Positions 1-49,665 of a stretch of DNA of 64,000 nt are shown here, in pieces. Under the pieces are notes generated by a model. That model saw only the letters and a list, made by a program, of their open reading frames with translations. It was not told where the DNA came from and searched no databases. The DNA is taken from contig NZ_VKDC01000021.1 in NCBI RefSeq assembly GCF_007097395.1, forward strand, positions 1-64,000, in the 5' to 3' direction. A program made the position numbers and the translations under genes. The stretch is from Fulvivirga sp. M361 (GTDB lineage Bacteria; Bacteroidota; Bacteroidia; Cytophagales; Cyclobacteriaceae). How positions within the stretch are numbered: position 1 is the first letter of the stretch; each line of letters begins with the position of its first letter.

Positions 1-315
1 CATCACACCCACAATAGCTTCATCTTCAAGCCCCTGGGAAAGTAAATAATGCGCCAGTTGATTAGAACGTTTGTCCAGCTCGCCGTAAGTCAGCTCACTA
101 TCTCCATAGACCAACGCCACCGCATCCGGACGCAAAGCAACATGCTCATTCATCAGCGAAAGCGCCGTGGTATCTGAAGGTAAAGCGATACGGGAAGCAT
201 CAAACTGATGGACCAGTGAGTATTGCTCCTGGCTGCTCATAAGGTCCAACTCAGCAAGTCTTTGATCCGGGTTGTCCAGAACAGATTCTACCAACGTCTT
301 AAAGTATCCCGAAAA
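1..315. repeat. Near-identical direct repeat, copy 1 (C-A linker region)
   Basis: Bases 1-315 match bases 3115-3429 with 7 mismatches and no gaps (97.8 percent identity). The repeat encodes the end of a C domain, the C-A linker and the start of an A domain. It ends sharply at base 315 and runs off the left edge, so its full length is unknown. Confidence 0.95.
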
Positions 316-3300
316 TCGCTCTATAGTAGCACGATCAAACAAGTCCGTCGCATATTCAAACGTTAAAGTCAAACAATCTGAATCCTCAAAGGCTGTTAGG
401 CTAAGGTCTACCATCGATACCTTATGGTCTACCTCATAAGCAGACAGCTTCAAGCCCGGAATGGCCAGTGATGTCGCCTCGAAGTTCTGATAGGAAAACA
501 TTGCATCAAACAATGGATTCCTGCCCGGGTCTCTGGATACCTCCAGCGCATCCACTAAGGCTTCGAAAGGATACCATTGATTTTCAAAACCCTGGATCGC
601 ACCGGACCGGACCTCTTTCAGAAACTCTTTGAACTGCTTTGACCCCTCAGGGTAATTACGGAAAGCAAGCGTGTTGATGAATACTCCGGTAATGTTTTGA
701 AGGTCCGGATGATCCCGGCCGGCTATGGGCGTGCCTACTACCACATCCGAATGATTACTCAACTTCGATAAAAATACATTGAACAGCGATAAAAACAGCA
801 TATACGGCGTAGCTTCTGAGGCAAGTGCCAACGCTTTTAATCCTGAGAAAGTCGTCGCATCAAGAGAAAAGGTATAGGTATCCCCCGAAAAAGAGCTTTG
901 CTGAGGACGGGGACGGTCTGTCGGCAACTCCAACACTTCTGGTAATTCTTTATATTCGGAAAGCCAAAATGATTTGTGAGAAGCTATAACCGACTCATTG
1001 GAGGCTGCATGCTGCCATACCGCATAATCTTTGTAGTGGAGTTTTACCGCCTCAAGTTCCTCTCCGTTATAGAGCGACATGAAATCATTCACCAGCAGGT
1101 TTTGGGACACACCGTCGGTAATGATATGGTGCATATCAAAGATCAACAGGTAACGTGATCCGTCCTGATCTCCTGTGTCAGATGTCAGTGTGATCAATCC
1201 AGCTCGCATCAACGGGGCTGAATTTAATGCAAAGGGACGCAAAAAAGCCTTAATCAACTGTTGCTCCTCTCTTTCCGCCACTTTTCCAAAATGAATAAGA
1301 TTGAAATCCATCTGATCATGAACTACCTGAACAGGTTCTTCTCCCTTCATTATAAAAGAGGTACGTAAGCTTTCATGACGGGCAATCAGTTTATTAAATG
1401 CACCTTTCAAGCGAGAAATGTCCAGTTCACCTTCCAGTACAACGACTTCCGGCATGTTATAAGCCAAAGAAGACGGGTCAAAACGGTGAAGAAAATAAAG
1501 CCGCTTTTGAGCAGACGAGAGCGGATAATAAGCCTGAGATGGCGCCGGCAAAATAGCCTGATATTGCTTCTCTTGAAGCGTTGACATGTAGCTCCCCAGA
1601 CTACGGATGTCCTGGTGCTCAAAAACTGACATTAATGGAACATCCAGCGAAAACTCCGACCGTATGCTATTGATCATGGTGATCGCCCGAAGAGAGTGCC
1701 CGCCTAACTCAAAAAAACTTCGGGTCACACTGATCTGTTCCCGGTCCAACTTCAATATTTCCGACCAGATATGGACCAACTGTTCTTCCAGCTCATTTCC
1801 TGCAGGAGTATAAGAGGATGTGAATGTCAGATCAGGTGCCGGAAGCGCCTTACGATTGAGTTTACCGCTCGCCGTCAAAGGCATTTCTGCCAGATGAACG
1901 TATGCTACCGGGACCATATAGGCCGGTAAACGACTCTTTAGATACTCCTTCAAATTATTTTCATCCTGCTGCTCATCAGAAAGATAATAAGCCACCAGTT
2001 GTAACTCATCCTGGATCTCACGGGTAACTACACTTACCTCATGCAATGAGGGATGGCTCGCCAGTTGCTGGGTAATTTCCCCCAGCTCCATGCGGAAACC
2101 CCGGATCTTGACCTGATCATCACACCGCCCCAAAAACTCCAGGTTACCATCGGAACGCCATTTCACCAGGTCACCCGTACGATACATCTTTTCCCCTTCA
2201 AAAAACGGGTCAGGAAGAAAACGCTCCGCCGTCAATGCTGCATTGTGAAGGTAGCCTTTTGCCAGGCAGGAGCCCGCAATGTACAGTTCTCCCCGTACTC
2301 CTTTTGCCAGCAAGTCACCCTCGCTACCCAAAACATAAGCACGAATGTTACCAAAGGGACGCCCTATGGGTACACGGATATCTGTTATTTTATCCCGGAC
2401 CCTATACTGAACGGAGGTCACCGTAGCCTCGGTCGGACCATAACCATTGAACACTATGTATTTATCATAGAGCTCATTAACTAAAGCCACATTACACTCT
2501 TCTCCCGCAATAACAATGCATCTCAGTTCCGGATGGAAACCTGTTCCTATACTTTCCAAATAAGTAGGTGTAACATCAAGATAAGTTACTTTTTTTGTTG
2601 CTATATAGCTCATAAAAGCACCCTGATCCAGTATAATATCACGAGATACTAAAACTGACCTGGCCCCATTTGCCAAAGCCAGCCACAGTTGCTCTACCGA
2701 TGCATCGAAGACCAGGTTAGCGAATTGTAACACACGATCATGAGCACTAATATTCAGCTCCTGTGTCTGAGAAACAATCAAATTCAGCAGCGTGGCATGA
2801 ACAATTTCAACGCCCTTGGGCACGCCGGTAGAGCCGGAAGTATAGATCACATACGCACGCTGTGAGGGAGATGGCATTAAATCAACTGCTGTTGAAGGAC
2901 AGCCGCTTAAATCAAGTGATCTTACAGCCAAACATGGTACTGCAGCTTTGTAGAGGTCACACGACCCGGCTTCGGTTAGCAGTAACCTGCAACCGCTTTC
3001 TTCCAGGATAACCACATTGCGTTCCCGGGGTTGCGTTCTGTCTAACGGAAGATAAGCCCCACCCGCCTTCATAATACCTAAAAGGCTGATCACCATTTCA
3101 AAAGAACGATCTACCATCACACCCACAATAGCTTCATCTTCAAGCCCCTGGGAAAGTAAATAATGCGCCAGTTGATTAGAACGTTTGTCCAGCTCGCCGT
3201 AAGTCAGCTCACTATCTCCATAGACCAACGCCACCGCACCCGGACGCAAAGCAACATGCTCACTCATCAGCGAAAGCGCCGTGGTATCTGAAGGTAAAGC

Positions 3301-4827
3301 GATACGGGCGGCATCAAACTGATGCACCAGTGAATATTGCTCCTGGCTACTCATAAGGTCCAACTCAGCAAGTCTTTGATCCGGGTTGTCCAGAACAGAT
3401 TCTACCAACGTCTTAAAGTATCCCGAAAACTGCTGAATCGTGGATTCATTGAATAAATCCGTAGAATATTCGAAATTTAATAACACTCCCTGGTCCACTT
3501 CCCCTGCTGTTAATGTAAGGTCAAACTGGGAAATATTCGTTTCAGAAGGGTACGGAGATATCGTTACCCCTGGCAATTGAAAGGATGCATCTTCAAAATT
3601 TTGGTAAGCAAACATTATATCAAACAGCGGATTACGGCTGGTATTACGTTCTATACCAAGTTGATCAATGAGGTCTTCCAATGGATAGTCCTGATTACCA
3701 AGGCATTTGATAATATGCAGGTTTGTAGTTTTAAGGAACTCCCGAAAGGTCACTTGCCCATCAACTGAGCTTTTGATGGCCAACGTATTGACAAATAAGC
3801 CTACCATCTCTTTTACATCCGGGTGTTTTCTTCCCGCTACAGGGGTACCAATTACAATTTGCTTTTGGTTGCTGAGTTTCGCAATCAAGATGTTAAAAAC
3901 AGCTAATAGCAAAGTGTACATGGTAACATGTTCCCCTACAGCCAATTCCTTCAACTCTTTTAAGGTCGGAACATCGAGATAGAAATTCATGGAGTGACCA
4001 TGGTACTTTATAACCGGTGGCCTGGAAAAGTCTGAAGGTAAATTCAGTTCATCAATATCCTCTTTGAACTGATTGATCCAAAATTCTTTTTGGGCCTGAA
4101 GTGCGTCTTGCTGCTTTTCATTTTGTTGCCAAATGACATAGTCCTTATATTGAATTTCAGGAGCACTTAGCAAAGCATTATTGTAGAATGCCATAAAGTC
4201 TTTTATCAACACAACCTGGGTAATACCATCTGAGATAATATGATGCAAGTCTACTACCAGTAGTGTACTTGCTACATCCGTTTGTATCAATGCAACACGT
4301 ATTAGTGGTCCTTTTTGAAGATCAAAGGGTCGTATAAAACCATTGAATACTGCAAGTGCATCTTTTTCCGAACTATTAAATACTTCTATATTAAAGGTTA
4401 TGTCATCCGCTATTTTTTGTACAGGTCCTCCATCGGACTGGTGAAATGTCGTTCTCAACATTTCATGCCTTGCCATTAACTTTTGAAAAGCCACATTCAT
4501 TTTTTCCTGCTCCACTTTCCCTGTCAACCTCAATACTTGCGGCATGTTATACGCCAACGAAGAGGGGTCTAGCTCATGTAAAAAATAGAGCCTCTTTTGC
4601 GCTGGGGATAAAGGATAATAGGAACGTTCCGCTACCTGAGGTATTTTCTGATAGATATCCTTATCATTTACTTCTTTCAGAAAAGATATAAGTGCCTCTT
4701 TATTATTTCTAATCTGCTGGAGTAACCCATCTGCCTGGACTTCTTTGGGGATATCCACTTTTAACCTATCTTCTACAACTTCTATCCTAATGTTGTTTTT
4801 CCTCAGGTTATTGATCAACTCATGCAT
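1..4827 (-). CDS. NRPS, docking-C-A-PCP-C-A (partial, C-terminal part off the left edge)
   Basis: Non-ribosomal peptide synthetase, 1609 codons in the window; the frame is still open at base 1. Residues 1-52 resemble a TubC-type N-terminal docking domain (two short helices around a beta-hairpin). Then come a C domain (about 68-490, HHIISDG intact), an A domain (about 510-990), a PCP (about 1005-1075, GGHSL), a second C domain (about 1095-1510, HHIITDG) and the first part of a second A domain. The specificity residues of the complete A domain read D-A-E-D-V-A-G-V-T-K. I do not recognise this code; the acidic residues at the third and fourth positions suggest a cationic side chain such as Orn, Lys or Arg, but this is weak. 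The start ATG lies 2 nt after the TAA of the upstream synthetase, so the two are surely co-transcribed. The C-terminal C/A linker is duplicated almost exactly inside the gene (1-315 and 3115-3429). Confidence 0.95.
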   Translation of the reverse strand, partial: MHELINNLRKNNIRIEVVEDRLKVDIPKEVQADGLLQQIRNNKEALISFLKEVNDKDIYQKIPQVAERSYYPLSPAQKRLYFLHELDPSSLAYNMPQVLRLTGKVEQEKMNVAFQKLMARHEMLRTTFHQSDGGPVQKIADDITFNIEVFNSSEKDALAVFNGFIRPFDLQKGPLIRVALIQTDVASTLLVVDLHHIISDGITQVVLIKDFMAFYNNALLSAPEIQYKDYVIWQQNEKQQDALQAQKEFWINQFKEDIDELNLPSDFSRPPVIKYHGHSMNFYLDVPTLKELKELAVGEHVTMYTLLLAVFNILIAKLSNQKQIVIGTPVAGRKHPDVKEMVGLFVNTLAIKSSVDGQVTFREFLKTTNLHIIKCLGNQDYPLEDLIDQLGIERNTSRNPLFDIMFAYQNFEDASFQLPGVTISPYPSETNISQFDLTLTAGEVDQGVLLNFEYSTDLFNESTIQQFSGYFKTLVESVLDNPDQRLAELDLMSSQEQYSLVHQFDAARIALPSDTTALSLMSEHVALRPGAVALVYGDSELTYGELDKRSNQLAHYLLSQGLEDEAIVGVMVDRSFEMVISLLGIMKAGGAYLPLDRTQPRERNVVILEESGCRLLLTEAGSCDLYKAAVPCLAVRSLDLSGCPSTAVDLMPSPSQRAYVIYTSGSTGVPKGVEIVHATLLNLIVSQTQELNISAHDRVLQFANLVFDASVEQLWLALANGARSVLVSRDIILDQGAFMSYIATKKVTYLDVTPTYLESIGTGFHPELRCIVIAGEECNVALVNELYDKYIVFNGYGPTEATVTSVQYRVRDKITDIRVPIGRPFGNIRAYVLGSEGDLLAKGVRGELYIAGSCLAKGYLHNAALTAERFLPDPFFEGEKMYRTGDLVKWRSDGNLEFLGRCDDQVKIRGFRMELGEITQQLASHPSLHEVSVVTREIQDELQLVAYYLSDEQQDENNLKEYLKSRLPAYMVPVAYVHLAEMPLTASGKLNRKALPAPDLTFTSSYTPAGNELEEQLVHIWSEILKLDREQISVTRSFFELGGHSLRAITMINSIRSEFSLDVPLMSVFEHQDIRSLGSYMSTLQEKQYQAILPAPSQAYYPLSSAQKRLYFLHRFDPSSLAYNMPEVVVLEGELDISRLKGAFNKLIARHESLRTSFIMKGEEPVQVVHDQMDFNLIHFGKVAEREEQQLIKAFLRPFALNSAPLMRAGLITLTSDTGDQDGSRYLLIFDMHHIITDGVSQNLLVNDFMSLYNGEELEAVKLHYKDYAVWQHAASNESVIASHKSFWLSEYKELPEVLELPTDRPRPQQSSFSGDTYTFSLDATTFSGLKALALASEATPYMLFLSLFNVFLSKLSNHSDVVVGTPIAGRDHPDLQNITGVFINTLAFRNYPEGSKQFKEFLKEVRSGAIQGFENQWYPFEALVDALEVSRDPGRNPLFDAMFSYQNFEATSLAIPGLKLSAYEVDHKVSMVDLSLTAFEDSDCLTLTFEYATDLFDRATIERFSGYFKTLVESVLDNPDQRLAELDLMSSQEQYSLVHQFDASRIALPSDTTALSLMNEHVALRPDAVALVYGDSELTYGELDKRSNQLAHYLLSQGLEDEAIVGVM
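3115..3429. repeat. Near-identical direct repeat, copy 2 (C-A linker region)
   Basis: Second copy of the repeat at 1-315, in the same orientation at an offset of 3114 bases. It covers the C-A junction of the first module (residues about 467-571 of the synthetase). The C-domain sequences on its right-hand side differ clearly between the two modules, so the near identity is local. This fits recent duplication, gene conversion or module exchange. Confidence 0.95.
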
Positions 4828-4829
4828 AC

Positions 4830-7800
4830 TTATATAAATTCGGTCGTTGATGTTTCTTCTTGTGCCGGATTTCCTTTAATCCATAAATAATTATCAATAC
4901 ACTCACTCATCTGCCGAATGGTTGGACCGGACCACACTTCTTCCATAGTGATCTCTATGGCGAAAGTCTCTTGAATTTTCATTACCAGTGAAACAACTCG
5001 AAGTGAATGCCCCCCTATGACGAAAAAGTCATGCTCAGCACTGATTTGCCCTGCAGGCAAATCAAGTACTTCAGCCCATATTTTTAATAGCTTACTTTCC
5101 GTTTTATTAGAAGGTTTCACAACTTCCTGGTTTTGTTCTACCGACGGATCAGGCAACTTTTTACGGTCTATTTTTCCATTACTATTTAAAGGCATTTGTT
5201 TCAACCAGGTATAGTGTAATGGAATCATATAACCTGGAAGCTTTTCGGAAAGGGACGTTATTATCATATCCTTATTCACTTCTTGTCCAGTGTAGTAAGC
5301 CAGCAAGCATTTGTCATTATGGGTGCCTTTTACCAGTACTACAGCTTCATTTATATCGGCATGTGCCTGAAGTTCCTTTTCTATTTCTTCTAACTCTATT
5401 CTAAATCCTCTGATTTTTACCTGATTATCTGCCCTCCCTACAAAATGTATATTGTCATTGGGTAGCCACCTGGCCAAATCACCGGTACGATACAGGCGAG
5501 AAGTAGAAATATTGGGTAAGTCAATAAACCTTTTCTCCGTAAGTTCTTTTTGATTGAGGTAACCATTGGCGACTCCATCTCCGCCAATATAAATCTCACC
5601 TGTAATGCCTGATGGAGACGGGTTGAAGTTTTGATCAAGAATATATACCTGTGTATTTGAAATCGGCTTACCAATAGGAATGGCATCCAATGAGTCATCA
5701 ATATGATCCACCGGGTGGAAAATGGAGAATACAGTAGATTCGGTAGGTCCGTATATATGAACCAATTTACCCGGCCCCAGCGCTGCCAGAACTTTTTGCA
5801 TATGTTTAATGGATGATTGTTCACCCCCCGTTAGTAGCTTTCGAATGCCTTTAAGACTATCGAGATTATGATCTGCCAAAGTGTTAAAAAGGGCAGTGGT
5901 AAGAAAGAGTACGGTTACTTTTTCAGAGCATATAACCTCTCCTAATTTCCTTACATCTTTGACTACTTCCGGTGAGACTAAAATGAGGGTAGCTCCGTTA
6001 AGTAACGCTCCAAAAATATCAAATACTGATCCGTCAAAGGCTACGTTAGAGGACTGGATCATAACATCATCATCAGATATAGCTATGTAATTGGTGTTTT
6101 TTACTACTCTTGAAACATTACTGTGTGAGATTACTGCTCCTTTAGGTTTACCCGTAGAGCCAGAGGTATACATTACATAAGCGGTGCTCTTTCCAGCGCC
6201 CACCGCTAATTCGTGTAAAGGCTCCATGGTTTCTATCAGCTCACTCTTTTCATCCAACGTCAATACATGACAAGCATTCTGATCTAAGCGCGAGAGGTAA
6301 TCTTTTCTGGTAATTATCACCTCTACCGATACATCGGCTAAAATATGTATGACCCTATCCTGCGGGTACTCAGGATCTATAGGTACGTAGGCGGCGCCCG
6401 CTTTTAATATGCCTAACATACATGGTATCAAGTACTCTTCGCTTCCTAACATCAGACCAACAAAATCTCCGGGCAGCACTTTTTCTTCCTTCACTAAATA
6501 ACAGGCTATTTTATTTGCCTTGACCTGTAATTCATGATAAGTCAATTGGAACCCGTCTCCTTTTATTGCTATCGATCCGGGCGTTTGTTGTACCTGTATT
6601 TCAAAAAGCTCACTTAAGGTCTTTTGCTTCGGATAAGGTGTTTCTGTAAGATTCAAATCTTGTAACAGACGTGTTTTCTCCTTATCATCAATCATTTCAA
6701 CACTGCCTAGTTTCCTGCTTGGGTCATGCGTGATAGAAGCCGTGAGCTGATGGAAAAATGCAATGAACCTATGAATGGTTTCCTCTTGAAATAATACAGT
6801 CGAATACTCAAAATTACAGAGTAAGTGATCCTCTTGCTCTATAACGGAAAGGGTAAGATCAAACTTGGATATCTTATGTTTAGGATCAATTGGCTCAATA
6901 GCGAGACCGTCAATTTTTAACGTATTCTCATCAAAACTGTTAAAACCAAAAGCAACATCGAAAAGCGCATTTCGACTTATACCTGGGTCGGCACCCAATT
7001 CTTCCATGAGTTTTTCATAGGGATAGGATTGGTTTTCAAAGTACTCAGGCATCCTGATCTTTATCTGTGAGAGAAATTGCCGGAAAGTCAAATCACTGTC
7101 AACCCGGCTTCTTACAGGGATAGTGTTGACAAACATGCCGATGATGTTTTCCAGGTCCCGGTGTTCTCTTCCTGCAATTGGATTGCCCACTACTATGTCA
7201 TCCTGCCCACTTAATTTACTTAGGAAAACATAGTAAATACTGATTAACAGCATATACATGGTTACACCCTCTTTATGGGCAAGCTCACTGAGCTTTTGAC
7301 TCTGAATTGCTGATATTTCAAAGTTCATAGAGCTGCCTTTAAATGATTTTAGTTTGGCCCTGTGAAAGTCCGCAGGGAGTTCCAACGGATCAGGAAGTTC
7401 ATTAAATTCATTCCGCCAAAAGTTTCTCTGCGCCTCACTATTTTCGGTTAGGTTTTCCTCTTGCCAAACAGCAAAGTCTTTATACTGAAGGTTTAGTGGA
7501 GCAAGCTTCTGCTCATCGTACAGCGCTATGAAATCCTTGATCAATATACCTTGAGACACGCCATCTGATATACAGTGATGCATATCTGTCATAAATAAGT
7601 GATTTCCATCGGCAAGTTCTGCTAAACCAATCCTGATAAGTGGTGGCTGATTTAGCGAGAACGGCCTTATAAATTGTTGAGTAATCTCCTCTTGACTCAT
7701 TTTTGCGTCAAAACAGTCTATTTCGGCATCTATTTCCTGAATAATCTTTTGAACAATTTTGCCCTCCACCATTTCAAAGCCTGTTCTCAGGCTTTCGTGC

Positions 7801-10610: not shown

Positions 10611-10646
10611 GTCCTCCTGCAGCTAATTTGACCGAAGGCATTGGCA

Positions 10647-12275: not shown

Positions 12276-12982
12276 AGGGTGGGGATTTTTGAATTCACTT
12301 TTTCAGTTAAGATCTTCATAATGATTTTGGGATGATCAAAAATGAAGAAATGATTTCCTTGCAACATTTTCACATCTATTTCTCCTGTTGTCTCCTTTTG
12401 CCAGGCCTGGGCTTCTTCAAAAGAAGCTTCCTCTTCGGAACCAATCAGAATGGTCATATTTACATCAAAGCGAGGCCTTTCTTTATATTGAAACTCCGCA
12501 ACCGCTTGAAAATCTGCGCGAAGAATAGGGATAAAAAACTCCATCAATGCCTTGTCATTCAAAATAGCGTCAGGACTGCCTCCCAGTTCTTTTATTTTTT
12601 GTATGAATTGTTCTTTGGGCAACAAATGATCTACCAACCCTCGATATCGGACAGAAGGCGCCACGCAACCGGTAAAAAACAGGTGCAATGGTATGGAAAG
12701 TCCCGCCTCTACAATTTTATGCACGAGTAAATACCCTAACAGACCTCCTAAGCTATGTCCATATATTACGTATGGAGTCTGAAGGCCATCTTTTATTTGT
12801 AAGAATATGTCATCCACTATTTTGTGGATATCTGTCAGTGATTCTTCACTGGCACGCATACCACGGCCGGGTATTTCCACGGGAATCATTTCAAACGTTG
12901 GTGGTGCTATTTTGGCATATTGTGCATAAGAATATTTGCTGGCACCGGAGAATGGAAGGAGGTAAATTTTCGTTTTTTCCAT
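12272..12982 (-). CDS. Type II thioesterase
   Basis: Alpha/beta-hydrolase of 236 aa, the usual size of stand-alone (type II) thioesterases that remove stalled or wrong acyl groups from carrier proteins. The nucleophile elbow is G75-H-S77-L-G, and the general base is H211 in a GNHFF motif near the C-terminus. The acidic triad member normally follows the sixth strand; here that segment carries consecutive Glu residues (183-185) rather than Asp. No signal peptide is present, so the protein is cytosolic. It lies between the NRPS genes and overlaps the hydroxylase gene by 4 nt. It is not the chain-releasing enzyme, since that would normally be fused to the last module, which lies beyond the left edge. 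Confidence 0.93.
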   Translation of the reverse strand: MEKTKIYLLPFSGASKYSYAQYAKIAPPTFEMIPVEIPGRGMRASEESLTDIHKIVDDIFLQIKDGLQTPYVIYGHSLGGLLGYLLVHKIVEAGLSIPLHLFFTGCVAPSVRYRGLVDHLLPKEQFIQKIKELGGSPDAILNDKALMEFFIPILRADFQAVAEFQYKERPRFDVNMTILIGSEEEASFEEAQAWQKETTGEIDVKMLQGNHFFIFDHPKIIMKILTEKVNSKIPTL

Positions 12983-13018
12983 GTTTGTCAGTTTACTTCA
13001 TAAAAATCATTTCGTTTA

Positions 13019-16963: not shown

Positions 16964-16971
16964 GGCTATGA

Positions 16972-35650: not shown

Positions 35651-35651
35651 A

Positions 35652-40226: not shown

Positions 40227-40237
40227 GGGGGAATTGA

Positions 40238-42727
40238 TTATTCGTATTTAAGTGCTTTGATAGGGTTTTCTAAAGTGGCCTTTAATGCCTGATAGGTTAT
40301 CGTACTGATCACTACGATCACAATGAGAGCCGATGTGATGACAAAATCACTCCAGCCAATAGGGATCTTATTAGAATAATTTTGTAGTATCTCAGACATC
40401 ACCCAATAGGCCAAGGGGATGGCCATAGCGAATGATACCATTAATAAGTAAGCATACTCTCTCACAAGCAATGCCGTTACATTTGATATAGTGGATCCTA
40501 ATACTTTTCTAATCGCAATGGACTTTTTCTTTTGGTGAATTAAGAAAACACTAAATGCCAGCAGACCCAGGTAAGCAATTAAGATGCTGGTATATGTATA
40601 GATCTGCATGATTTTCTTAATCTGCTGCTCTATTTTGTATTGAGAGGTTATAAAATCATCCAGGAAGTTATAATCCAATTCATCTTTAGGGTAATATTTT
40701 TGAAACACTTCTCTTACAGATGCTATGCTTCTTTCAATATCGGCTCCTTTTTTGATTTTGATACTGTAAAAGCCCCTGTTCATTGGAAACAGGTGGTACT
40801 TTATAGGCGCCACTCCATTGGACAATGGCTCCTGGTTATAGTCCTCCAACACACCTATGATCTGATGCCCTCCGGGTGTTACATAATGAGCATTTACATC
40901 ATCTACGTATAGTGAATTACCTATAGCATCCTGAGGCTCTTCATATCCAAGCAGTTCCATCAATTTTCGATTGATCACTACATTTTCTTTTTCATTTTCA
41001 CGGTTATCCGAAAAGAAACGTCCAGCCAGCAGCTTTAATCCATATACATCTACATAATCCTGATCGGTAAAAATATTATTGGCATAAAACTTATCATCTG
41101 AGTTTCTCCAGACCGCCTGACTGTTGTTATAGAAAAAACCAGGAGTTATCGTAGAAAGGCAGATATTCTCTATGTCCGGACTTTTTCTGATTTCATCTTT
41201 GAAGGCATCCAGGTAATTGATCTCTACAGTTTCATAGCCACTTGCCATTGTATATTTCCGGATCACCATAACATTGTCCTTCTCAAAACCCAGGTCCGTT
41301 TTCAAGAAAAAGTCAATTTGCCGGTCCAGAAGTAGTGTACTACTAATCAGTATAAATGAAACCGCTATCTGGGTATTCATTAGTATTTTCCTTAACAACG
41401 CATTCCTTTTATTGGAAGAAAGGTTTTCATTTTTCTTCATAATAAGCTTCATAGAGAAAATGATCAGGAATAACAGCACTCCTTTTAAAAGTGCTACCGT
41501 AACGAGAAATGAAATGAAGAAAAGATAGAATTTGGGGTTGTCAATAATGGTAAAAGCTTTAGGTATGTCCAGAAACTCATAGAATGGATCCAGGAAAATC
41601 AGCAACAGGAGTAAGGACATTGAAGCTGCCAAAAAGGTAAGCATGAACGACTCAATCAAGAACTGAGTGAACATCTCCCATAAATTCGCCCCAAAGATTT
41701 TCCTCAGGTTGATCTCTTTGAACCGGTTTATAGAATTGATGTAGGTCAAATTAACATAGTTAAATATTGAGAATATGAGCAATACCAGGGCCCCATAGAA
41801 GATCCATTTAACCGTTCTCTCATCGATCTCATCGGATCGTATCAAAGACCTTCTTTCCATACCTCCCAGGTATTTCGGGTGTATATTTTTTCGCAGATGA
41901 ATGTCTGATATATGTTGCAGGTGCAGCTCACGAGAGCCATACTTTTTCATTATTCCCTCGGTTTTCGAAACAAGGAATTTGTTCAAATCAACTTCAAATT
42001 CATCTGCATTGGTACCATCTTTAAGCTTTAGATAGGTATCAAACATTGGATAATAATAGTTTGCATCGCCTCCATCAAATACCGTATACTGCCCCAGGTC
42101 AGACTCCACATTTATAGCAGAAGTAAGCACATCTATTCTGATATGGGTATTTTCGGGTAAGTCTTCCATCACGCCGGTAATTTTATAGAGCCAGGGATCA
42201 TGAAATCCGTAACCTAATCCCAATGTCTTTCCTACAGGGTCTTCCCCTTCATAAAGAAGCTCTGCCAGTGATGCTGTAATTACCGCCGTCCTCGGCTCTG
42301 ATAGTACCTGGTCACTTTCACCACTAATCAGTTTAAAATCAAAGAAATTGAAGATGTTATTGTCTGTACCAAAAACGGCCTTTTTAAAGAAAATATCCTC
42401 ATCACGATAGAGCAGCAATGTCTCAAATTCAAAGAGCCGGACGGCCTCTTCTACTGCCGTAAAGTTCTCCTCTACTTCCGGCCCCAGAAAATGCATGGCA
42501 AAGGCAAACTGTTTCACAAAATCCCCATCAGTGGAATAGGTATCTGTAAGGACACGATGAATGTTGGAAGATTTATACTGTGTATCAAAAGAATTGTGAT
42601 AGTAGACGTAAATGAATACCAAAAATGAAGAGGCAATACCCAGCGCCAGGCCTAAAAGGTTGATACCTGTCAACATTTTATTTTTCAATAGGCTCCTGAT
42701 AGAAACCATCACATAGTTTTTAAACAT
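40238..42727 (-). CDS. ABC transporter permease, MacB/FtsX type
   Basis: Inner-membrane protein of 829 aa with the two-repeat layout common in Bacteroidota: an N-terminal helix (about 20-42), a large periplasmic region, about three helices in the 305-430 range, a further helix near 455-480 that opens the second repeat, a second periplasmic region, and three C-terminal helices. The C-terminal AIRKVLGS segment after a transmembrane helix is a hallmark of FtsX/MacB permeases. It is embedded in the biosynthetic operon directly after the loading-module gene, which suggests export of the product or of an intermediate form, or self-protection. No ATPase partner is encoded in the window, so it would have to use one encoded elsewhere. 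The export role is inferred from context. Confidence 0.93.
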   Translation of the reverse strand: MFKNYVMVSIRSLLKNKMLTGINLLGLALGIASSFLVFIYVYYHNSFDTQYKSSNIHRVLTDTYSTDGDFVKQFAFAMHFLGPEVEENFTAVEEAVRLFEFETLLLYRDEDIFFKKAVFGTDNNIFNFFDFKLISGESDQVLSEPRTAVITASLAELLYEGEDPVGKTLGLGYGFHDPWLYKITGVMEDLPENTHIRIDVLTSAINVESDLGQYTVFDGGDANYYYPMFDTYLKLKDGTNADEFEVDLNKFLVSKTEGIMKKYGSRELHLQHISDIHLRKNIHPKYLGGMERRSLIRSDEIDERTVKWIFYGALVLLIFSIFNYVNLTYINSINRFKEINLRKIFGANLWEMFTQFLIESFMLTFLAASMSLLLLLIFLDPFYEFLDIPKAFTIIDNPKFYLFFISFLVTVALLKGVLLFLIIFSMKLIMKKNENLSSNKRNALLRKILMNTQIAVSFILISSTLLLDRQIDFFLKTDLGFEKDNVMVIRKYTMASGYETVEINYLDAFKDEIRKSPDIENICLSTITPGFFYNNSQAVWRNSDDKFYANNIFTDQDYVDVYGLKLLAGRFFSDNRENEKENVVINRKLMELLGYEEPQDAIGNSLYVDDVNAHYVTPGGHQIIGVLEDYNQEPLSNGVAPIKYHLFPMNRGFYSIKIKKGADIERSIASVREVFQKYYPKDELDYNFLDDFITSQYKIEQQIKKIMQIYTYTSILIAYLGLLAFSVFLIHQKKKSIAIRKVLGSTISNVTALLVREYAYLLMVSFAMAIPLAYWVMSEILQNYSNKIPIGWSDFVITSALIVIVVISTITYQALKATLENPIKALKYE

Positions 42728-42796
42728 AGGGGTAATCGTAGTTTATTTCTCCGCGTAAAGTATGTATATGTTAATTGACGAGTACGTGTATGGTGC

Positions 42797-43168
42797 TTAA
42801 ACCATATTGAGTTCACCTTCAGCTTCTCCCATGATCATGGAATACTCCTTTTCTTCAATAGCTGTAAGGTAACCACCTCCGGTACATGTGGCCAGGTCAA
42901 GCTGAACGGTACATTTCACCTTGATAAAGTCAAGAATGAGTCCTCCACTCAAGGTAACCGCGCCTTCCTCCGTTTCAAAATTGCCGGAAAGCAGATCACA
43001 TTGAGGTAGGAATAGCTTAAATCCGACTTCTGTTCCTGTTTTAGGGAAGTGAACACTGACATAATTTCTATCAATGCATTCTTTCAGGGCCTTGCAATGT
43101 TGCCTGGGGCGCTTAAATACAATTTGCTGTTCTAAACTTAGGAGTAGGATTAGTTCATTCGCAGGCAT
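42797..43168 (-). CDS. Unknown 123-aa protein inside the NRPS operon
   Basis: I do not recognise this protein. It has 123 aa, no signal peptide and no transmembrane segment. Hydrophobic and polar residues alternate in the second half, which suggests beta-strands, and there are five Cys residues (25, 31, 57, 86, 95). It sits 35 nt after the loading NRPS and 69 nt before the permease gene, in the same direction, so it is very likely co-transcribed with them. The frame is the only sizeable open one here and is flanked by normal short gaps, which supports a real gene. A cytosolic accessory role is possible, but no function can be assigned from the sequence. Confidence 0.7.
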   Translation of the reverse strand: MPANELILLLSLEQQIVFKRPRQHCKALKECIDRNYVSVHFPKTGTEVGFKLFLPQCDLLSGNFETEEGAVTLSGGLILDFIKVKCTVQLDLATCTGGGYLTAIEEKEYSMIMGEAEGELNMV

Positions 43169-43203
43169 TGGTTGGGGGTTTAGTAGTTCTGATGATTTGT
43201 TAT

Positions 43204-46200
43204 TTATTCAAAGAGTGCTTCCAGTTCTTCCTGATCCAGATCAGCTCCATCAAAATCCGATGGAGTGAAATGCACATTTCGTTCTGTTCTTATATGGTCT
43301 AACAACTCTAGTAAGTTATCTTTCAAGGTATTTCCAAGTTGCTTGATTGTCTGAGGCAGATAGGCTTTACCATTGTATATAATTTCAATCTGTAAACATC
43401 CTCTAACCACCATGGCATTAAACTCCAATTTAGCGCTCATGCGGTTTCTGGGATCGGTTTCTATCCCATGGTCCTGATCGGCGTAGGAGAATAGCTCGTT
43501 TTCAAGGTCATAATCAAACTGACCAATATAGTTTAGCCGTACTTCGCTCAGGTTTGTAGGTGATAACTCTCCAAGGCTCTTCAAAATGCCATAACCAATT
43601 CCGTTATTAGGGACAGACCTCACTTCCTCTTTTACCGTTTTGATATTCTCTGACAGTGAATCTGCTTTTATGGTCAGATTCACCGGGTACATGGCGGTAA
43701 ACCAACCTATGGTTCTTGAGATGTCAATACCGGCAAAGTGACGTCCGTGGTTCTCTAACTCCAATTTAATTTGGGTTTCTCCGGTCCACTTACTTAAGGT
43801 TACGGCAAGTGCCGTACTCAGTAAGATCGGCACATCAGTTTGATAGACACTATGGGCTTGTTTCAACAAATAATCGGTGTATTCCTGGTCAATGGTTACG
43901 TTTTCTTTTTTGGTATTGGCAACAACCCAATCAGATGGACCAGTATTGATGTCGTCTTTAAGTTTAAACTCTTGTTTTTCAATACTTTGCCAGTATTCCT
44001 TTTCACTTTCGGTAATTTCAGACTGACCATAGGATCTGACAAACCGTGACCACTGACTAATAGAAGCCGTTTTGAAGGGTGTATGTATACTTGATCCTTT
44101 TACCAATGAATGATAATTTCTCACAAGATCTTCTAATAGAATACGCCAGGATATGCCGTCAATTACTAAATGATGCATCGTGATAAACAGCTTATCGATA
44201 TGACCGTTAATCGAAATTAGTGCACTTTTAAACAACAAGCCATCTTCCAGGTTCAGTGCATGCTTCAGTTCCTGACATATTTCTAGCAACTCATGTTTAT
44301 CCGACACCTCGTGTAATTCTAATCGCAGGTTTAGTTCACCCTCTTCCTGATAAGTCAGAGAAGCGGTTGGCTGATCATATTTGATCCTCAATTCATCATG
44401 CTGGTTAATAGCTGCCGGTAAGGCCTTTTGTAATAAGCCGAAGTCAATATTTTCTTTCAAATCCAGCAGTAGTGACTGATTATAACAGTGCGGATTCACA
44501 AAATCCAACTCGGAAAACCACTTAGCCATGGGAGTGATAGGAAACTCACCTTCTGCTCTTCCATGATCATAACTATTTGACTGATGAAGCACTTTAGCTT
44601 GTTCACTTATCTGTACCAGGGTCTGGTAAGTAAGTATTTGATTTACCTCTAACGCTATATTTTTTTCTGCCAATCGATTGACGATCTGTATCGCTTTGAT
44701 GGAATCACCTCCAAGCTCAAAGAAATTATCGGTCATTGACAGATCCTCTACCGCTAATATATCACACCAGATCTCCTGCATAGTTTCTATTATTTCATTA
44801 GCGGGAAGTACTTGTTTCTGGCATATTGAATATGTTTTGGGGAGTAATGAATAATCTACCTTACCATTTTTTGTTAATGGAATCTCAGCCAATTGAACGA
44901 AATAAGTAGGGATCATATAGTGAGGTAACCTTCCAGAGAGAAACTTACGCAACTCCAACTCTGACACATTACCTGTTCTACTTTGATAATATGCCCAAAG
45001 CATATTCCTGCCTTTATCATTTTCCCATGCGGTGGCTATTGCAGCAGAAATAGTTTCAAACGCCTGCAGGCATTGTTCTATTTCAGAGAGCTCTATCCTG
45101 TAACCATCTATTTTAAGTTGATGATCTACCCGTCCAAAAAATTCCAGATTTCCATCCGCGTTTTTTCTTACGAGGTCCCCCGTTTTATACATTCTCCTGC
45201 CCTGCCCAAATGGATTAGGAATAAACATGGACCGGGTTAAATCTTCACGGCCTAAATAGCCCCTGGCTAATCCATCTCCCGCGACAAATAGCTCTCCTAA
45301 TACACCTTGAGGAACAGGGTTCATATTGGGATCAAGTACATGGACCTCTGTATTTGCAATAGGTCTGCCAATAGCGACTGTTTGTGATTCTTCATTTGGA
45401 GCATAGGCATGGATCATACAACCCACGGTGGCCTCTGTCGGACCGTATTCATTAAAGATCTCCACTTGCTCTCCAAACAATTGATAGATCTCCAGGGCAA
45501 GTTGGGTCTCCAGCTTCTCCCCTCCTACGATCAGTCTTTTCAAATTTGCTTTTGCATTTGCCGGTATAGACATCTCGCGCAGCTGTTTCAAATGGGAAGG
45601 AGTCATTTTTATAACATTTACCTTTCCATCATTGATCACCTTTTGCGTCAATACATAGTTTCCATCTTCGTAGATAAGCAGGCTGTTACCTGTAATTAAC
45701 GGAGTAAAAATAGAGGTAATGGTCAGGTCGAATGAAACCGAGGTATATAAGGGAAAAATCACCTGCTCTTTCCTCACGTAGTGATCTTTCGCCCATACGA
45801 TATAATTCACCAGCGATTTGTGTTCTACCATCACTCCTTTTGGACCACCGGTCGTTCCAGAGGTATAGATCACATAGGCAATATCATGAGAATCATTTGT
45901 ACCGGACTGATATTGATCTGTTTCTTCATGGTAAAATGTGTCAATGTTTATCAGACCCTGAGCAAGAGGCGCTTCAATATCTTCCAGGATCTTTTTCATA
46001 TGATCTAACCGCGACGTATCGGTTATAACATGCTTACAGTCACTATCTTTTAATATATGTTTTATCCTTTCTTCCGGCTGGTCGGTATCCAATGGAAGAA
46101 AACACCCACCTGACTTAAGAATGCCCAATATGCTCACAATAAATTCCGGGCAACGTGGTAGCAAGACACATACAATATTGTCAGAACAGACACCTTTACC

Positions 46201-49200
46201 GACCAAAACAGTAGCGAGATAATTGGCCTTATTATTAAGCTGTCTATATGAAATGACTTCGTTTCGAAATGTCAAAGCAGGGACAGTGCCATTTGCTATC
46301 ACTTGTTCTTCGAAAAGCTGATGTATGCTTTTTTGACTCGGGTAGTCACGTTGTGTATCATTGAAGATCGCTGCCTCTCTTTGATAAGCATCATCGGACA
46401 ATAAACTAATTTCACCTATTACCTGGTGAGTATTACTAAGAATGTTATCTATCAAGCGTTTAAAGCTCTCAACAAATCCCTGCATTGTTTCCTTCCGGAA
46501 TAATCCTGTAGCATATTCAACCCCACAGTTTAACACACCATCATTTTCAAAAATCTCCATTGAAAGGTCAAATTTTGAAAACCCAGGATCAAAGAAATGT
46601 CGATTGACTTTAACATCCGTGGCACTTACTACAGGGAAACCAATATTGTGGTAGTTGAACATCGTATCAAATAAGACATTTCTACTTACATCCCTCTTCT
46701 GAGCTACTTGCTGCCTTAGCAGGTCATAAGGATAGTCCTGATGCTCTAATGCATTGGCCAGATTTTGCTGTATTTCATGCAGGTATTGTATAAATGTTTG
46801 CCCGGAATCCAGGCTGGCTTTAATGGGCAGGTTATTTACAAACATACCGTGTACATCCAACAGGTCAGGATGTGTTCGTCCAGCTACTGGTATACCTATT
46901 ATCATCTCGTCGCTACGACAATACCTGTTTAGCGTTAATACATAGATTGAAAACATTAAGGCATGTATTGTGCATCCTTGATTTTTAGCCAAACCACGGA
47001 GCCGTTCTACTGTCACCAGATCTAACTCAAAAGGTATTCTTGCTCCCTTACCATCAAATACAGCCGGCCTGGCATAGTCGGTTGCCAAATCCAACAAGGG
47101 AACATACTTGCCTAAATAGTCTTGCCAGAATTTTCTCTGTCTTTTTAATCTGTCATTGATGATACTCTTACACTCCCATTCAGCAAAATCCTGGTAGTTT
47201 ATGCTTTTATTTTTTAACGGGTTTCCCTGATAAACATCGAATAGCTCATCGATGAAATTAAAAACGGATATGCCGTCTGAAATAATATGATGGAAGTCCA
47301 GAAATAAGATAGTAGTATCCACATCCAGTTTGAATAAATGGGCCCTGAATAAAGGTGCCATTTTTAGGTCAAAGGGCTTAACCGTTTGTTGCAATACTTC
47401 ATCTAATTCATCTGAATTACAATGACTCATTTTTAAATCAAACGAAACACTATCGGTGACCCTTAAGACGGGTTCATTATGGTATTCAAATGTAGTACGT
47501 AAAGAACTATGACGTGCAATTAATGTTTTCAGTGCTTTGTCCAACTCACCAAGCTCAATTTTTCCTTCCAGCCGGATAGCAATAGGAATATTGTAAGCTA
47601 CTGAAAGCTTATTGGCTTCCCAACTAGCATATAACCTACTTTGCGCGGACGACGTTTTGTAAACTTCTTTATTCCCCACTTCAATTATTGGAATATAGGT
47701 CTGTTTATTAAGGGATTCCAGTAGTTCTGCGAGAAGTGTTACAGTAGTTTTTTCATAAAGTGTGTTTAAAGGTAAATCGAGGCCAAACTCTTTTAAGACC
47801 AGCATACTTATTTCTGCCGCTTTTAAAGAGTTTATACCTATGTCAGCAAATACTTCATCAGGTGATATATAGTCTCTTTGTAGTACTTTCCTACAAATCC
47901 TGGTCAACCTGATTTCATAGGTGTTTTGAGATTCTTCCAGGCTTTCAACAGCTTGAGCGTTCAAAGTGCTGTCAGCCATTTCATTTAATGCATATTGTAC
48001 TTCATCGAATTCCCCTTTTCTGAATCTTTCAATCAGTTTATATCGCTGCAACTTTCCACTGGTAGTACGAGGTATGTCTGACACCGGTAAAATGTGATCG
48101 AATTCAACACCTGCACAAGCATTCACATGTGATTTAACCAACTGGGCCAGAGGCAAAAACTTATCTAGTGAGCCTCTATGAAAGATGAAGCAGATCACTT
48201 CTTCTTTCGCAAGAGATGCATTAAAAAAACCTCCAACTACTATTTTATTTAATTCTATTCCATCTACTTCCTGGCTTAACTGCTCTATATCATGGGGATA
48301 GAAATTTTGACCGTTCACAAAGAAAATATCCTTTGATCTACCCGTAACATAAAGGTTACCATGAAGCTTGAAGCCTAAATCACCCGTTCTTAACCAGCCA
48401 TCTTTAGTGATCAGAGCATTGGTAGCATCTTCATTGTTGTAATAACCGGAGGTAACACTGTTACCTGAAATCTGGATATGACCAATGATACCTTCTGTTG
48501 CCATGATGTCATTGTCGTCAACTATTCGAAGCCTGCAATTATCTATTGGTTTTCCCACATTAACCAAAGACAAGGAACGATCACCTTGTAACGAAATACA
48601 AACTTTATCTCCCAGATTAAGCGTATCACGATCCACATGGACGGATGTTATTTCATCCGATAGGCCGGACATGGTCACCGCTAAACTAGCCTCAGCCAAA
48701 CCGTATACAGGACAGATCGCTTCTCTCCTCAACCCAAAAGCTGATAAGTTATCAGTAAACTCAAATCCAATTTGTTCTGATATTGGTTCAGCTCCATTGT
48801 ATATTAAGCGAATAGTAGATAAATCCCAGTTTTGCACTTCGAGATTTACATGCTTTAACAGGTACCTGTAGCCAAAGTTTGGAGAACCCAAAATTGTGAC
48901 TTTATACTCGGTAGCTTTATCCATCCACAACGCCGGACGTCGCACAAATAAATTAGTAGGCATCAATATCTGATGCATGCCACTATATAATGGATTCAGA
49001 TGCAATCCAATTAATCCCATATCATGGGTTAAAGGCATCCAGCTCAACATCACATCTTCAGGCCGATATTGAGCAGATGCTGCAATAGCCGCCATATTTA
49101 CCATCAAATTTCTATGTGTGAGTATTACTCCTTTTGGATTACCTGTAGAACCTGAAGAAAATTGGATGTAAGCAATATCATCCGGTAAAGCATTATGAAC

Positions 49201-49665
49201 TTCTCCGTATTCTTGATCTATATCTCTTTCTTCTATAAAAACTGTCTTGCCTTTCTGCTCGCTATATAGAGATTCCAATGAATGACTGATGGCAAAAGTC
49301 TCAAATTTTATAAAATCACTTTTTGAGATGAATAAATAAGGGTCTTGTAGTGTTGACCAAACATTAAACAGTTTTTGCTTTCGATCATCATTGTGGCCTA
49401 GTGTTAACGGCACGGGAACCACCCCCCCTAAAATACAAGCCCAAAATGCCGTTACGAAGGTTTCATTGTCATCCATTTGAAGCACCAATTCCGACCCGGG
49501 CTTTAATCCCCGTGACTGAAAATAAGCCAATAGTTTTAAGGCATGCTCGTATAGTCGTTCATAGGAAACAAAAGTTGAGCTATCATTACTTTCTAAAAAT
49601 GAAAGACCTACATCTTTCAGCCGTTTTCTTACATCAATGACATCTACGAGGGTTTTCAAGTGCAA
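43204..49665 (-). CDS. Lipo-initiating NRPS, FAAL-ACP-C-A(Asn)-PCP-E
   Basis: Loading protein of 2153 aa. A fatty acyl-AMP ligase (about 1-570, FSSGSTGNPKG near residue 170) activates a free fatty acid and loads it on an ACP (about 590-660, Ser in INSL). A C domain (about 670-1100, HHIISDG) joins it to the amino acid chosen by the A domain (about 1130-1620). The code DLTKIGEVGK differs from the known Asn code DLTKLGEVGK only by Leu to Ile. A PCP (about 1640-1710, GGDSI) and an E domain (about 1720-2140, HHLVIDG then SWRIL) follow, so the product is fatty acyl-D-Asn. The start is a TTG at 49665: an in-frame TAA lies three codons upstream, and the first in-frame ATG would cut into the FAAL fold. 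It is the first gene of the operon, after an AT-rich spacer. Confidence 0.96.
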   Translation of the reverse strand: MHLKTLVDVIDVRKRLKDVGLSFLESNDSSTFVSYERLYEHALKLLAYFQSRGLKPGSELVLQMDDNETFVTAFWACILGGVVPVPLTLGHNDDRKQKLFNVWSTLQDPYLFISKSDFIKFETFAISHSLESLYSEQKGKTVFIEERDIDQEYGEVHNALPDDIAYIQFSSGSTGNPKGVILTHRNLMVNMAAIAASAQYRPEDVMLSWMPLTHDMGLIGLHLNPLYSGMHQILMPTNLFVRRPALWMDKATEYKVTILGSPNFGYRYLLKHVNLEVQNWDLSTIRLIYNGAEPISEQIGFEFTDNLSAFGLRREAICPVYGLAEASLAVTMSGLSDEITSVHVDRDTLNLGDKVCISLQGDRSLSLVNVGKPIDNCRLRIVDDNDIMATEGIIGHIQISGNSVTSGYYNNEDATNALITKDGWLRTGDLGFKLHGNLYVTGRSKDIFFVNGQNFYPHDIEQLSQEVDGIELNKIVVGGFFNASLAKEEVICFIFHRGSLDKFLPLAQLVKSHVNACAGVEFDHILPVSDIPRTTSGKLQRYKLIERFRKGEFDEVQYALNEMADSTLNAQAVESLEESQNTYEIRLTRICRKVLQRDYISPDEVFADIGINSLKAAEISMLVLKEFGLDLPLNTLYEKTTVTLLAELLESLNKQTYIPIIEVGNKEVYKTSSAQSRLYASWEANKLSVAYNIPIAIRLEGKIELGELDKALKTLIARHSSLRTTFEYHNEPVLRVTDSVSFDLKMSHCNSDELDEVLQQTVKPFDLKMAPLFRAHLFKLDVDTTILFLDFHHIISDGISVFNFIDELFDVYQGNPLKNKSINYQDFAEWECKSIINDRLKRQRKFWQDYLGKYVPLLDLATDYARPAVFDGKGARIPFELDLVTVERLRGLAKNQGCTIHALMFSIYVLTLNRYCRSDEMIIGIPVAGRTHPDLLDVHGMFVNNLPIKASLDSGQTFIQYLHEIQQNLANALEHQDYPYDLLRQQVAQKRDVSRNVLFDTMFNYHNIGFPVVSATDVKVNRHFFDPGFSKFDLSMEIFENDGVLNCGVEYATGLFRKETMQGFVESFKRLIDNILSNTHQVIGEISLLSDDAYQREAAIFNDTQRDYPSQKSIHQLFEEQVIANGTVPALTFRNEVISYRQLNNKANYLATVLVGKGVCSDNIVCVLLPRCPEFIVSILGILKSGGCFLPLDTDQPEERIKHILKDSDCKHVITDTSRLDHMKKILEDIEAPLAQGLINIDTFYHEETDQYQSGTNDSHDIAYVIYTSGTTGGPKGVMVEHKSLVNYIVWAKDHYVRKEQVIFPLYTSVSFDLTITSIFTPLITGNSLLIYEDGNYVLTQKVINDGKVNVIKMTPSHLKQLREMSIPANAKANLKRLIVGGEKLETQLALEIYQLFGEQVEIFNEYGPTEATVGCMIHAYAPNEESQTVAIGRPIANTEVHVLDPNMNPVPQGVLGELFVAGDGLARGYLGREDLTRSMFIPNPFGQGRRMYKTGDLVRKNADGNLEFFGRVDHQLKIDGYRIELSEIEQCLQAFETISAAIATAWENDKGRNMLWAYYQSRTGNVSELELRKFLSGRLPHYMIPTYFVQLAEIPLTKNGKVDYSLLPKTYSICQKQVLPANEIIETMQEIWCDILAVEDLSMTDNFFELGGDSIKAIQIVNRLAEKNIALEVNQILTYQTLVQISEQAKVLHQSNSYDHGRAEGEFPITPMAKWFSELDFVNPHCYNQSLLLDLKENIDFGLLQKALPAAINQHDELRIKYDQPTASLTYQEEGELNLRLELHEVSDKHELLEICQELKHALNLEDGLLFKSALISINGHIDKLFITMHHLVIDGISWRILLEDLVRNYHSLVKGSSIHTPFKTASISQWSRFVRSYGQSEITESEKEYWQSIEKQEFKLKDDINTGPSDWVVANTKKENVTIDQEYTDYLLKQAHSVYQTDVPILLSTALAVTLSKWTGETQIKLELENHGRHFAGIDISRTIGWFTAMYPVNLTIKADSLSENIKTVKEEVRSVPNNGIGYGILKSLGELSPTNLSEVRLNYIGQFDYDLENELFSYADQDHGIETDPRNRMSAKLEFNAMVVRGCLQIEIIYNGKAYLPQTIKQLGNTLKDNLLELLDHIRTERNVHFTPSDFDGADLDQEELEALFE

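Follow-up and report, generated by a model that had tools for sequence, protein, structure and literature searches.

The window analysed, 64,000 nucleotides from Fulvivirga sp. M361, was confirmed to carry a hybrid peptide-polyketide assembly line, and this line very probably belongs to an NRPS-PKS cluster of the prodrug type in a Fulvivirga-like bacterium, in which an acyl-D-Asn cap would be removed by a fused peptidase-exporter encoded on a second contig. Judged from domain order and conserved residues, the acyl-D-Asn most likely serves as a mask that is later removed, such that the 'lipopeptide' would probably be an inactive precursor and not the end product, and the final product probably starts with a free Cys. 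The preliminary description had taken the product to be a lipopeptide, which is not supported: an acyl-D-Asn head combined with a peptidase-exporter resembling ZmaM points to a mask that is cleaved.

Organization of the assembly line

Twelve genes, all on the minus strand and spaced by -50 to +69 bp, run from position 49665 down to the left edge of the window, and profile searches gave their domain order as that of an assembly line: FAAL-ACP / Asn-E / Cys / Leu-E / Leu / KS-AT-KR / KS-AT-cMT / Leu / Ile / Ile / X. The head gene (43204..49665) encodes FAAL-ACP-C-A1-T-E, with the Asn code DLTKIGEVG in A1; a promoter scan 5' of this gene returned 8 promoter-like sites, where shuffled sequences gave 7.1 on average. 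It is followed by genes for a 123-aa protein with no family match in domain searches (42797..43168), a MacB/FtsX (ADOP-like) permease (40238..42727), a C2-A2-T-C protein with the Cys-like code DLYDLSLIW (35652..40226), a half-C-A3-T-E-C-A4-T protein containing two Leu modules (28607..35701), PKS module 1 (23980..28575), PKS module 2 with a terminal C domain (16972..23976), a half-C-A5-T-C protein for Leu (13019..16963), a stand-alone (type II) thioesterase (12272..12982), a CmlA-type diiron beta-hydroxylase (10647..12275), a half-C-A6-T-C-A7-T protein with two Ile-like codes, DGFFLGVVF and DGFFLGIVF (4830..10610), and a TubC-type dock-C-A8-T-C-A9 protein (1..4827).

The codes extracted by alignment, which also included DAWFLGNVV three times and DAEDVAGVT in A8, were assigned to Asn, Cys-like, Leu, Leu, Leu, Ile, Ile and X, in agreement with the hand-read codes and residue order of the preliminary description. 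The order of the modules, the D configuration of two residues, and the one reduced and one C-methylated ketide were likewise borne out by the codes, domain searches and epimerase motifs, with HHxxxDG intact in both epimerase domains. The A2 code has Asp for Asn at position 278 of the published Cys profile, whilst that of A8 (X) matches the published arginine profile at seven of nine positions and is accordingly termed Arg-like.

Position 1 of the window is the start of its contig (G000:C63), hence the cluster is truncated at the left edge, where A9 is cut, in line with the earlier proposal that the line runs past this edge. The cluster appears to resume, across a gap of approximately 0.8 kb, on contig C80 of this genome, whose end encodes the remainder of an A domain, a T domain and a TE (L032:14668-16245), with the gene for the 1030-aa peptidase-exporter located 5 bp beyond (L032:11570-14662). 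We infer this join from the edges of C63 and C80, which have the same strand sense and each fall within an adenylation-domain repeat, the repeats being nearly identical (93% and 96% DNA identity). Assignment of the C80 tail to another line was considered and rejected: condensation domains occur in this genome only on C63 and C105, and those of C105 are 26 kb or more away from the ends of that contig. Between C63 and C80 the central part of A9 is lacking, and this, like the indirect nature of the join, counts against our explanation.

The CmlA-type protein matched CmlA_N (PF18456, 2.6e-95) and a metallo-beta-lactamase fold (PF12706), and the PDB search matched it over residues 4-528 of 542, with 8a90 as the best match (478 bits) and CmlA (395 bits) aligned over residues 6-525. 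The 8a90 entry, titled only 'Non-heme diiron monooxygenase', may be FrsH. FrsH is described in PMC7794379 as acting on carrier-bound Leu. This hydroxylase, the FtsX-type permease and the thioesterase II had been passed over in the preliminary description, which did not extend to contig C80.

On the basis of domain order and codes, the FAAL would load a fatty acid onto the fused ACP and module 1 would make acyl-D-Asn, after which two PKS modules and eight more amino-acid modules, the last of them predicted from the ends of C63 and C80, would extend the chain to approximately acyl-D-Asn-Cys-D-Leu-Leu-[CH(OH)CH2CO]-[CH(CH3)CO]-Leu-Ile-Ile-Arg?-X?. The CmlA-type enzyme would beta-hydroxylate one residue, most likely Leu or Ile, and the terminal TE would release the precursor. 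The 1030-aa protein would then carry the precursor across the inner membrane, where its periplasmic S12 domain would cut after D-Asn to leave a free N-terminal Cys and N-acyl-D-Asn; the mask would in this manner shield the producer until export.

The ketide unit and the C2 domain

A statine-like core had previously been proposed, and the part of this claim that stands is the Leu-malonate-KR unit, with PKS module 1 (KS-AT-KR-T) placed directly after a Leu module. The order that forms statine, in which Leu, one malonate and KR are followed directly by an amino acid, was not found, as the next module is KS-AT-cMT-T, a C-methylating module that extends the unit once more and in which neither Pfam nor PDB sequence searches detected a ketoreductase; free statine is therefore not the predicted unit. 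Among 295 family genomes, with two candidates scored per genome, PKS module 2 had no full-length relative besides itself, the best match having 35% identity over residues 9-1561. Pepstatin-type statine peptides likewise contain a Leu extended by reduced malonate, though not one that is re-extended in this way. Whilst Leu followed by KS-AT-KR-T would yield the Leu-derived hydroxy acid of statine, the second extension, and the difficulty of explaining a self-protecting mask if the target is rare in bacteria, make it quite unlikely that the line ultimately yields an aspartic-protease inhibitor of the statine type. Pepsin-like aspartic-protease targets are rare in bacteria, and an inhibitor of this type would hardly need masking inside a bacterium.

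The C2 domain, which is meant to join D-Asn to Cys, has the motif HSIIYDG, in which Ser (codon TCT, 39786..39788, minus strand) replaces the catalytic second His of HHxxxDG. The matching domain in relative loci reads HHILYDG in five instances and HHILHDG in a sixth, and the second His is kept in 177 of 180 condensation/epimerase rows, the two exceptions besides C2 being two readings of one domain. Without its catalytic His, C2 could render the line inactive, and a damaged cluster, in which the line stalls after acyl-D-Asn, would be consistent with this conservation and with the codon itself, as TCT differs from both His codons at two bases. However, the reading frames of the cluster are open, 11 carrier sites are present within the window, and some condensation domains tolerate the loss of the second His, so we consider such damage unlikely. 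A more speculative idea, to which we give very little weight, is that the D-Asn-Cys bond forms without the usual His: with Cys as the acceptor, its thiol would attack the thioester of acyl-D-Asn, and an S-to-N acyl shift of the kind used in native chemical ligation would follow, leaving C2 free to drift to HSxxxDG. Once the peptidase has freed this Cys after export, its 1,2-aminothiol could react with the unreduced ketone of PKS module 2, closing a ring, or with a target.

The peptidase-exporter fusion and its relatives

The 1030-aa protein combines a ClbP-like S12 peptidase with a TIGR01194 ABC exporter in a ZmaM-like architecture. It aligns with full-length ClbP, including both the catalytic and membrane parts (residues 41-474, 7mdc, 3.3e-50), and its exporter half scored 343.7 bits against TIGR01194 (cut-off 286.2). 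In ClbP numbering the fusion keeps S95, K98, Y186, E92, Thr at 188, Asn at 257, N331, W460 and W466, which is the set of catalytic, D-Asn-binding and tryptophan residues given in passages of PMC9889268 for N-acyl-D-asparagine prodrug peptidases. The SxxK and catalytic Tyr residues (S92, K95 and Y186 in its own numbering) and the membrane-part tryptophans (W455 and W461) were kept in all 12 aligned fusions. The D-Asn-binding residues are N327 and T188, with E89 behind the Asn (N331, Ser/Thr188 and E92 of ClbP); across the 12 fusions, position 331 is invariably Asn, and 188 is Thr in 11 and Ser in one. Position 92 is Glu in seven fusions and Gln in five, and as E92Q in ClbP is described as letting D-Asp through (PMC9889268), E92 does not strictly define the group. 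The pocket-network residue K235 of ClbP is Met in the fusion; this residue is not given as a class mark for ClbP-type peptidases in the relevant parts of PMC9889268.

As a control, all 16 other S12 matches in the genome were globally aligned. S95, K98 and Y186 were kept in 15/15 where covered, whereas E92 was found in none of 14 readable sequences and Ser/Thr188 and N331 in none of 15. By these residues, the fusion is most likely a ClbP/ZmaM-type prodrug-activating peptidase, predicted to cut N-acyl-D-Asn amides.

Fourteen other head genes read in family genomes (13 full-length, one in two frames) have an identical Asn code. In each of the seven relative fusion loci with a readable head, from a total of 13 (the other six being unreadable owing to contig ends), a FAAL-ACP-C-A(DLTKIGEVG)-T-E head lies on the same contig as the fusion, and this acyl-D-Asn head is constant whilst the cores vary. 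The Asn head adjoins the fusion in Chitinophaga varians; in our genome the two lie on separate contigs, linked by the presumed join described above. One of 15 named loci with a flank of 10 kb or less showed the Asn head. The fusion and the full head gene were each found in 12 of 295 genomes (own included), 11 of which had both (hypergeometric p 5e-18, or 8e-12 when counting only the 84 genomes that had a PKS match, values that are only a guide because the genomes are related). One genome (G176) has the head gene and no close fusion, and in another (G269) the fusion is present and no head gene was found. In a draw of 395 phylum genomes, our genome alone matched the fusion protein at E 1e-150, suggesting that the fusion is rare in the phylum at large. 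Two candidates were scored per genome in these searches of the 295 and 395 genomes, and copy numbers are thus lower bounds.

Could the acyl-D-Asn head instead be kept, with the product a secreted lipopeptide and the fusion either an exporter only or active on another substrate? The line does resemble an ordinary FAAL-started lipopeptide NRPS, and the C63-C80 join rests on the contig edges, but the fusion keeps the prodrug-peptidase residues, of which the D-Asn-binding ones occur in none of the 16 other S12 matches, and the Asn-E head accompanies varying cores in every readable relative locus. We therefore regard retention of the head as very unlikely and favour its cleavage.

A relative of the FtsX-type permease adjoins the head gene in five of the seven relative loci with the head read. 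Relatives of the 123-aa protein occur in 2 of 294 other family genomes, and that of G009 is flanked on one side by an NRPS gene and on the other by an ABC exporter matching the exporter half of the fusion. Neither the CmlA-like nor the 123-aa gene had a tblastn match at 1e-3 in the stretches around the relatives' fusions.

Significance and comparison with known systems

If the apparent lipopeptide is a masked compound, a chemist should seek the free peptide and free N-acyl-D-Asn rather than a lipopeptide; the calculated [M+H]+ of N-acyl-D-Asn is 343.259 for a C14 chain and 357.275 for C15. The published ClbP/ZmaM boronate inhibitor (compound 3 of PMC9889270) could be used to trap the precursors of such strains directly. 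Among the relatives, Bacteroidota clusters form a set that keeps the acyl-D-Asn head and the peptidase-exporter as the cores change, and the main text of the ClbP survey does not name this phylum (PMC9889268; 0 occurrences of 'bacteroid'). A literature search returned no report of a prodrug NRPS in Bacteroidota; this search also missed known reviews of the mechanism, and absence is not claimed.

The hydroxylase (10647-12275) resembles in sequence the beta-hydroxylase of chloramphenicol (CmlA) and may also be close to that of FR900359 (FrsH), its substrate residue here being only predicted. The chitinopeptins of Chitinophaga, which are cyclic tetradeca- and pentadecalipodepsipeptides, likewise come from an NRPS of the Bacteroidota that is accompanied by an ABC transporter and a CmlA-like hydroxylase; their conserved genes, as listed in sections of PMC9248904, include an S8 peptidase and no named prodrug peptidase.

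The N-acyl-D-asparagine prodrug pathways of zwittermicin, edeine, paenilamicin, amicoumacin, xenocoumacin and colibactin have the diagnostic S12 residues in common with our cluster. Their caps, too, come from C-A(Asn)-T-E modules. Our cluster differs in that the Asn module carries a fused FAAL-ACP for acyl loading, an FtsX-type permease and a CmlA-type hydroxylase are present, and the host belongs to the Bacteroidota; we know of no described N-acyl-D-Asn pathway with this FAAL-ACP-Asn fusion, permease or hydroxylase. Passages of PMC9889268 describe the N-acyl-D-Asn cap as being cut by membrane-bound S12 peptidases with diagnostic residues, and ZmaM, EdeA and PamJ as having a cyclic-peptide-type ABC half-transporter fused behind the peptidase, the same arrangement as in the C80 protein.

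Organisation and predicted specificities of the assembly line

The cluster comprises 12 genes, all on the minus strand from 49665 down to 1, at the start of a 102,953 bp contig (C63, of which the window covers positions 1-64000) of the 8.13 Mb genome; the AraC-type regulator, CutC, sugar transporter, ROK kinase and GH92 glycosidase encoded upstream of it, from 50127, were not counted. Domain calls with Pfam, and for the NRPS and PKS genes also with HMMs made from the window's own domains, gave, in gene order, the head gene FAAL-ACP-C-A1-T-E (43204-49665), a 123-aa protein without a family match (42797-43168), an FtsX-type permease (40238-42727), C2-A2-T-C (35652-40226), half-C-A3-T-E-C-A4-T (28607-35701), KS-AT-KR-T (23980-28575), KS-AT-cMT-T-C (16972-23976), half-C-A5-T-C (13019-16963), a thioesterase II (12272-12982), a CmlA-type hydroxylase (10647-12275), half-C-A6-T-C-A7-T (4830-10610) and dock-C-A8-T-C-A9 (1-4827), with A9 cut at the contig start. 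The three half-C pieces represent the C-terminal lobe only (profile positions from about 190), and in each case the preceding gene of the line, NRPS or PKS-NRPS, terminates with a full condensation domain; some relatives' genes likewise open with short C pieces. A second, smaller NRPS locus lies at about 565204-573254 of contig C105.

The specificity codes of A1 (DLTKIGEVG) and of A3, A4 and A5 (each DAWFLGNVV) are taken to denote Asn and Leu, respectively, and those of A6 (DGFFLGVVF) and A7 (DGFFLGIVF) presumably Ile. A2 carried DLYDLSLIW and A8 DAEDVAGVT. In PMC12283262, DLTKIGEVGK is treated in the Asp/Asn section, DAWFLGNVVK is among the commonest codes of the Leu/Ile/Val section, and DLYNLSLIWK is listed, with a Cys cluster having Leu236, Tyr/Trp239 and Asn278. 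A8 matched the Arg profile given there (Asp235, Ala/Val236, Glu239, Asp278, Ile/Val/Leu299, Gly301, Ala322, Val/Ile330, Thr/Asp331) at seven of nine positions, with mismatches at 301 and 322.

No ketoreductase was found by Pfam or PDB sequence search in the PKS module at 16972-23976, and its ketone should therefore stay. Its top PDB match (3.8e-47) being the C-methyltransferase domain of CurJ, the methyltransferase of this module is assigned to the C-methyl type. The AT motifs of the two PKS modules, HAFHS and NAFHS, are presumably malonyl type. The residue order of the preliminary description (acyl-D-Asn-Cys-D-Leu-Leu-reduced malonate-methylated malonate-Leu-Ile-Ile-X) agrees with both the domain calls and the extracted codes. 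As for the aspartic-protease inhibition that the statine-like core evoked there, the Leu-malonate-KR unit is present, but no other support was found.

The hydroxylase belongs to the CmlA family, its best PDB match being 8a90 (478 bits), ahead of CmlA (395 bits). According to PMC7794379, the family member FrsH acts on Leu bound to a carrier and will also take Ile, and by analogy beta-hydroxylated Leu or Ile would be the likely outcome. A relative, CrpA, is described in PMC12181424 from a Pedobacter cluster without hydroxylated leucine, hence the hydroxylase target is not deducible from family alone.

The probable contig join and the peptidase-exporter fusion

A DNA search of the genome revealed that the final bases of contig C80 (57651-58246) were 96% identical to window positions 1675-2270, within A8, whilst positions 1-366 shared 93% DNA identity with 3115-3480. 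Both matches therefore place the C80 end and the C63 start inside a second A8-repeat copy; the two edges are correctly oriented for this, and about 0.8 kb between them is absent. We infer that the split is an assembly break, likely caused by these near-identical adenylation repeats, and hence that A9 would resemble A8. Repeats of 93-96% identity are also a sign of recent module duplication. Onward from its edge, C80 encodes an adenylation-domain remainder, T-TE and, 5 bp further, a 1030-aa fusion of an S12 peptidase and an ABC exporter.

The fusion contains Beta-lactamase (PF00144; 6.6e-60), ABC membrane and ABC ATPase domains by Pfam, scores above the cut-off for TIGR01194, and aligns over residues 41-474 with full-length ClbP (7mdc; PDB sequence search). 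With positions counted by hand in this alignment (chain offset 30), the fusion retains E92, S95, K98, Y186, N331, W460 and W466 (ClbP numbering) and has Thr at 188 and Asn at 257; PMC9889268 describes these residues either as catalytic or as conserved among prodrug peptidases. The K235 position is Met. Global alignment with all 16 other S12 matches of the genome, two of which (L026 and L031) may be pieces of one gene, served as a control. S95, K98 and Y186 were present in all 15 covering them, whilst among readable matches E92 occurred in 0 of 14, Ser/Thr188 and N331 each in 0 of 15, and Asn257 in one only (L016).

Across 12 aligned fusions (our own and 11 of 13 others; L034-L045), N331, W460, W466 and Asn257 were invariant and position 188 was Thr in 11 and Ser in one. 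At E92, seven (including our own) carried Glu and five Gln, the latter in genomes whose head genes, where read, nevertheless carry the Asn code. ClbP E92Q admits D-Asp substrates (PMC9889268), and Gln-type fusions may therefore be less strict.

The 123-aa protein has a relative in another genome (G009), flanked by an NRPS gene on one side and on the other by an ABC exporter resembling the fusion's exporter part, which suggests that it is a small partner of such clusters.

Distribution of the fusion and the head gene

The full fusion was found in 12 of the 295 family genomes, including eight of the 15 of the genus (our own counted in both), with at least 13 further copies that were 43-59% identical. 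Thirteen fusion neighbourhoods besides our own were scored for domains and codes. The head was readable in seven (G072, two in G243, one in G262, G186, G160 and G275), all of which had FAAL-ACP-C-A(DLTKIGEVG)-T-E; in G275 the head gene is split over two frames and adjoins the fusion, behind it. The remaining six (G269, G286, G253, G262:C19, G142 and G182) stop at contig edges. Seven more head genes, each on a contig without the fusion, all carried DLTKIGEVG, and these 14 are all the full-length ones besides our own among the matches listed. Head gene and fusion each occurred in 12 of 295 genomes, with both in 11; in G176 the head gene was detected without the fusion, and in G269 the fusion without the head gene.

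The cores varied among the loci read, a similar one being common to G243, G262 and G186, and none of these loci repeated the module order of the window. An FtsX-type permease like that at 40238-42727 adjoins the head in five of the seven head-readable loci and lies elsewhere in a sixth (G160). G243 and G262 each encode two or more distinct fusion copies, so that either strain apparently has two masked pathways. The two heads of G243 were both readable, and two head genes were read in G262. In G072 (contig C5; positions 22236-35825 of L066+L098+L099), a second C-A(DLTKIGEVG)-T-E module follows KS-AT-KR-T, and a second D-Asn within one product is possible.

Long matches to peptidase plus exporter included named records of Chitinophaga ginsengisegetis, C. 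varians, Pedobacter suwonensis, P. cryoconitis, two Tenacibaculum, Aminicenantes and KSB1 MAGs and Caldalkalibacillus (two frames). Within flanks of up to 10 kb, 13 of the first 15 of the 80 loci retained had an NRPS or PKS domain besides the fusion, and C. varians was the sole case of an Asn-code head gene adjoining it. The MAG fusions (L113-L115 and L119), which lie outside Bacteroidota, were 43-48% identical to our own, with those of L113 and L119 adjoining NRPS or PKS genes. In a draw of 395 genomes of the phylum, the fusion query retrieved only our own genome at 1e-150.

Predicted product and relation to known pathways

On sequence grounds, the most likely reading is that acyl-D-Asn serves as a mask which the fusion removes on export, giving a free-Cys peptide-polyketide as the product. 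On this reading the two ends take on a meaning different from that in the preliminary description, which had a lipopeptide-polyketide pathway. The host belongs to the Bacteroidota, a phylum not named in the main text of the prodrug-peptidase survey (PMC9889268). Relative to zwittermicin-like pathways, in which the masking mechanism is already known, the cluster adds a member with an apparently new core.
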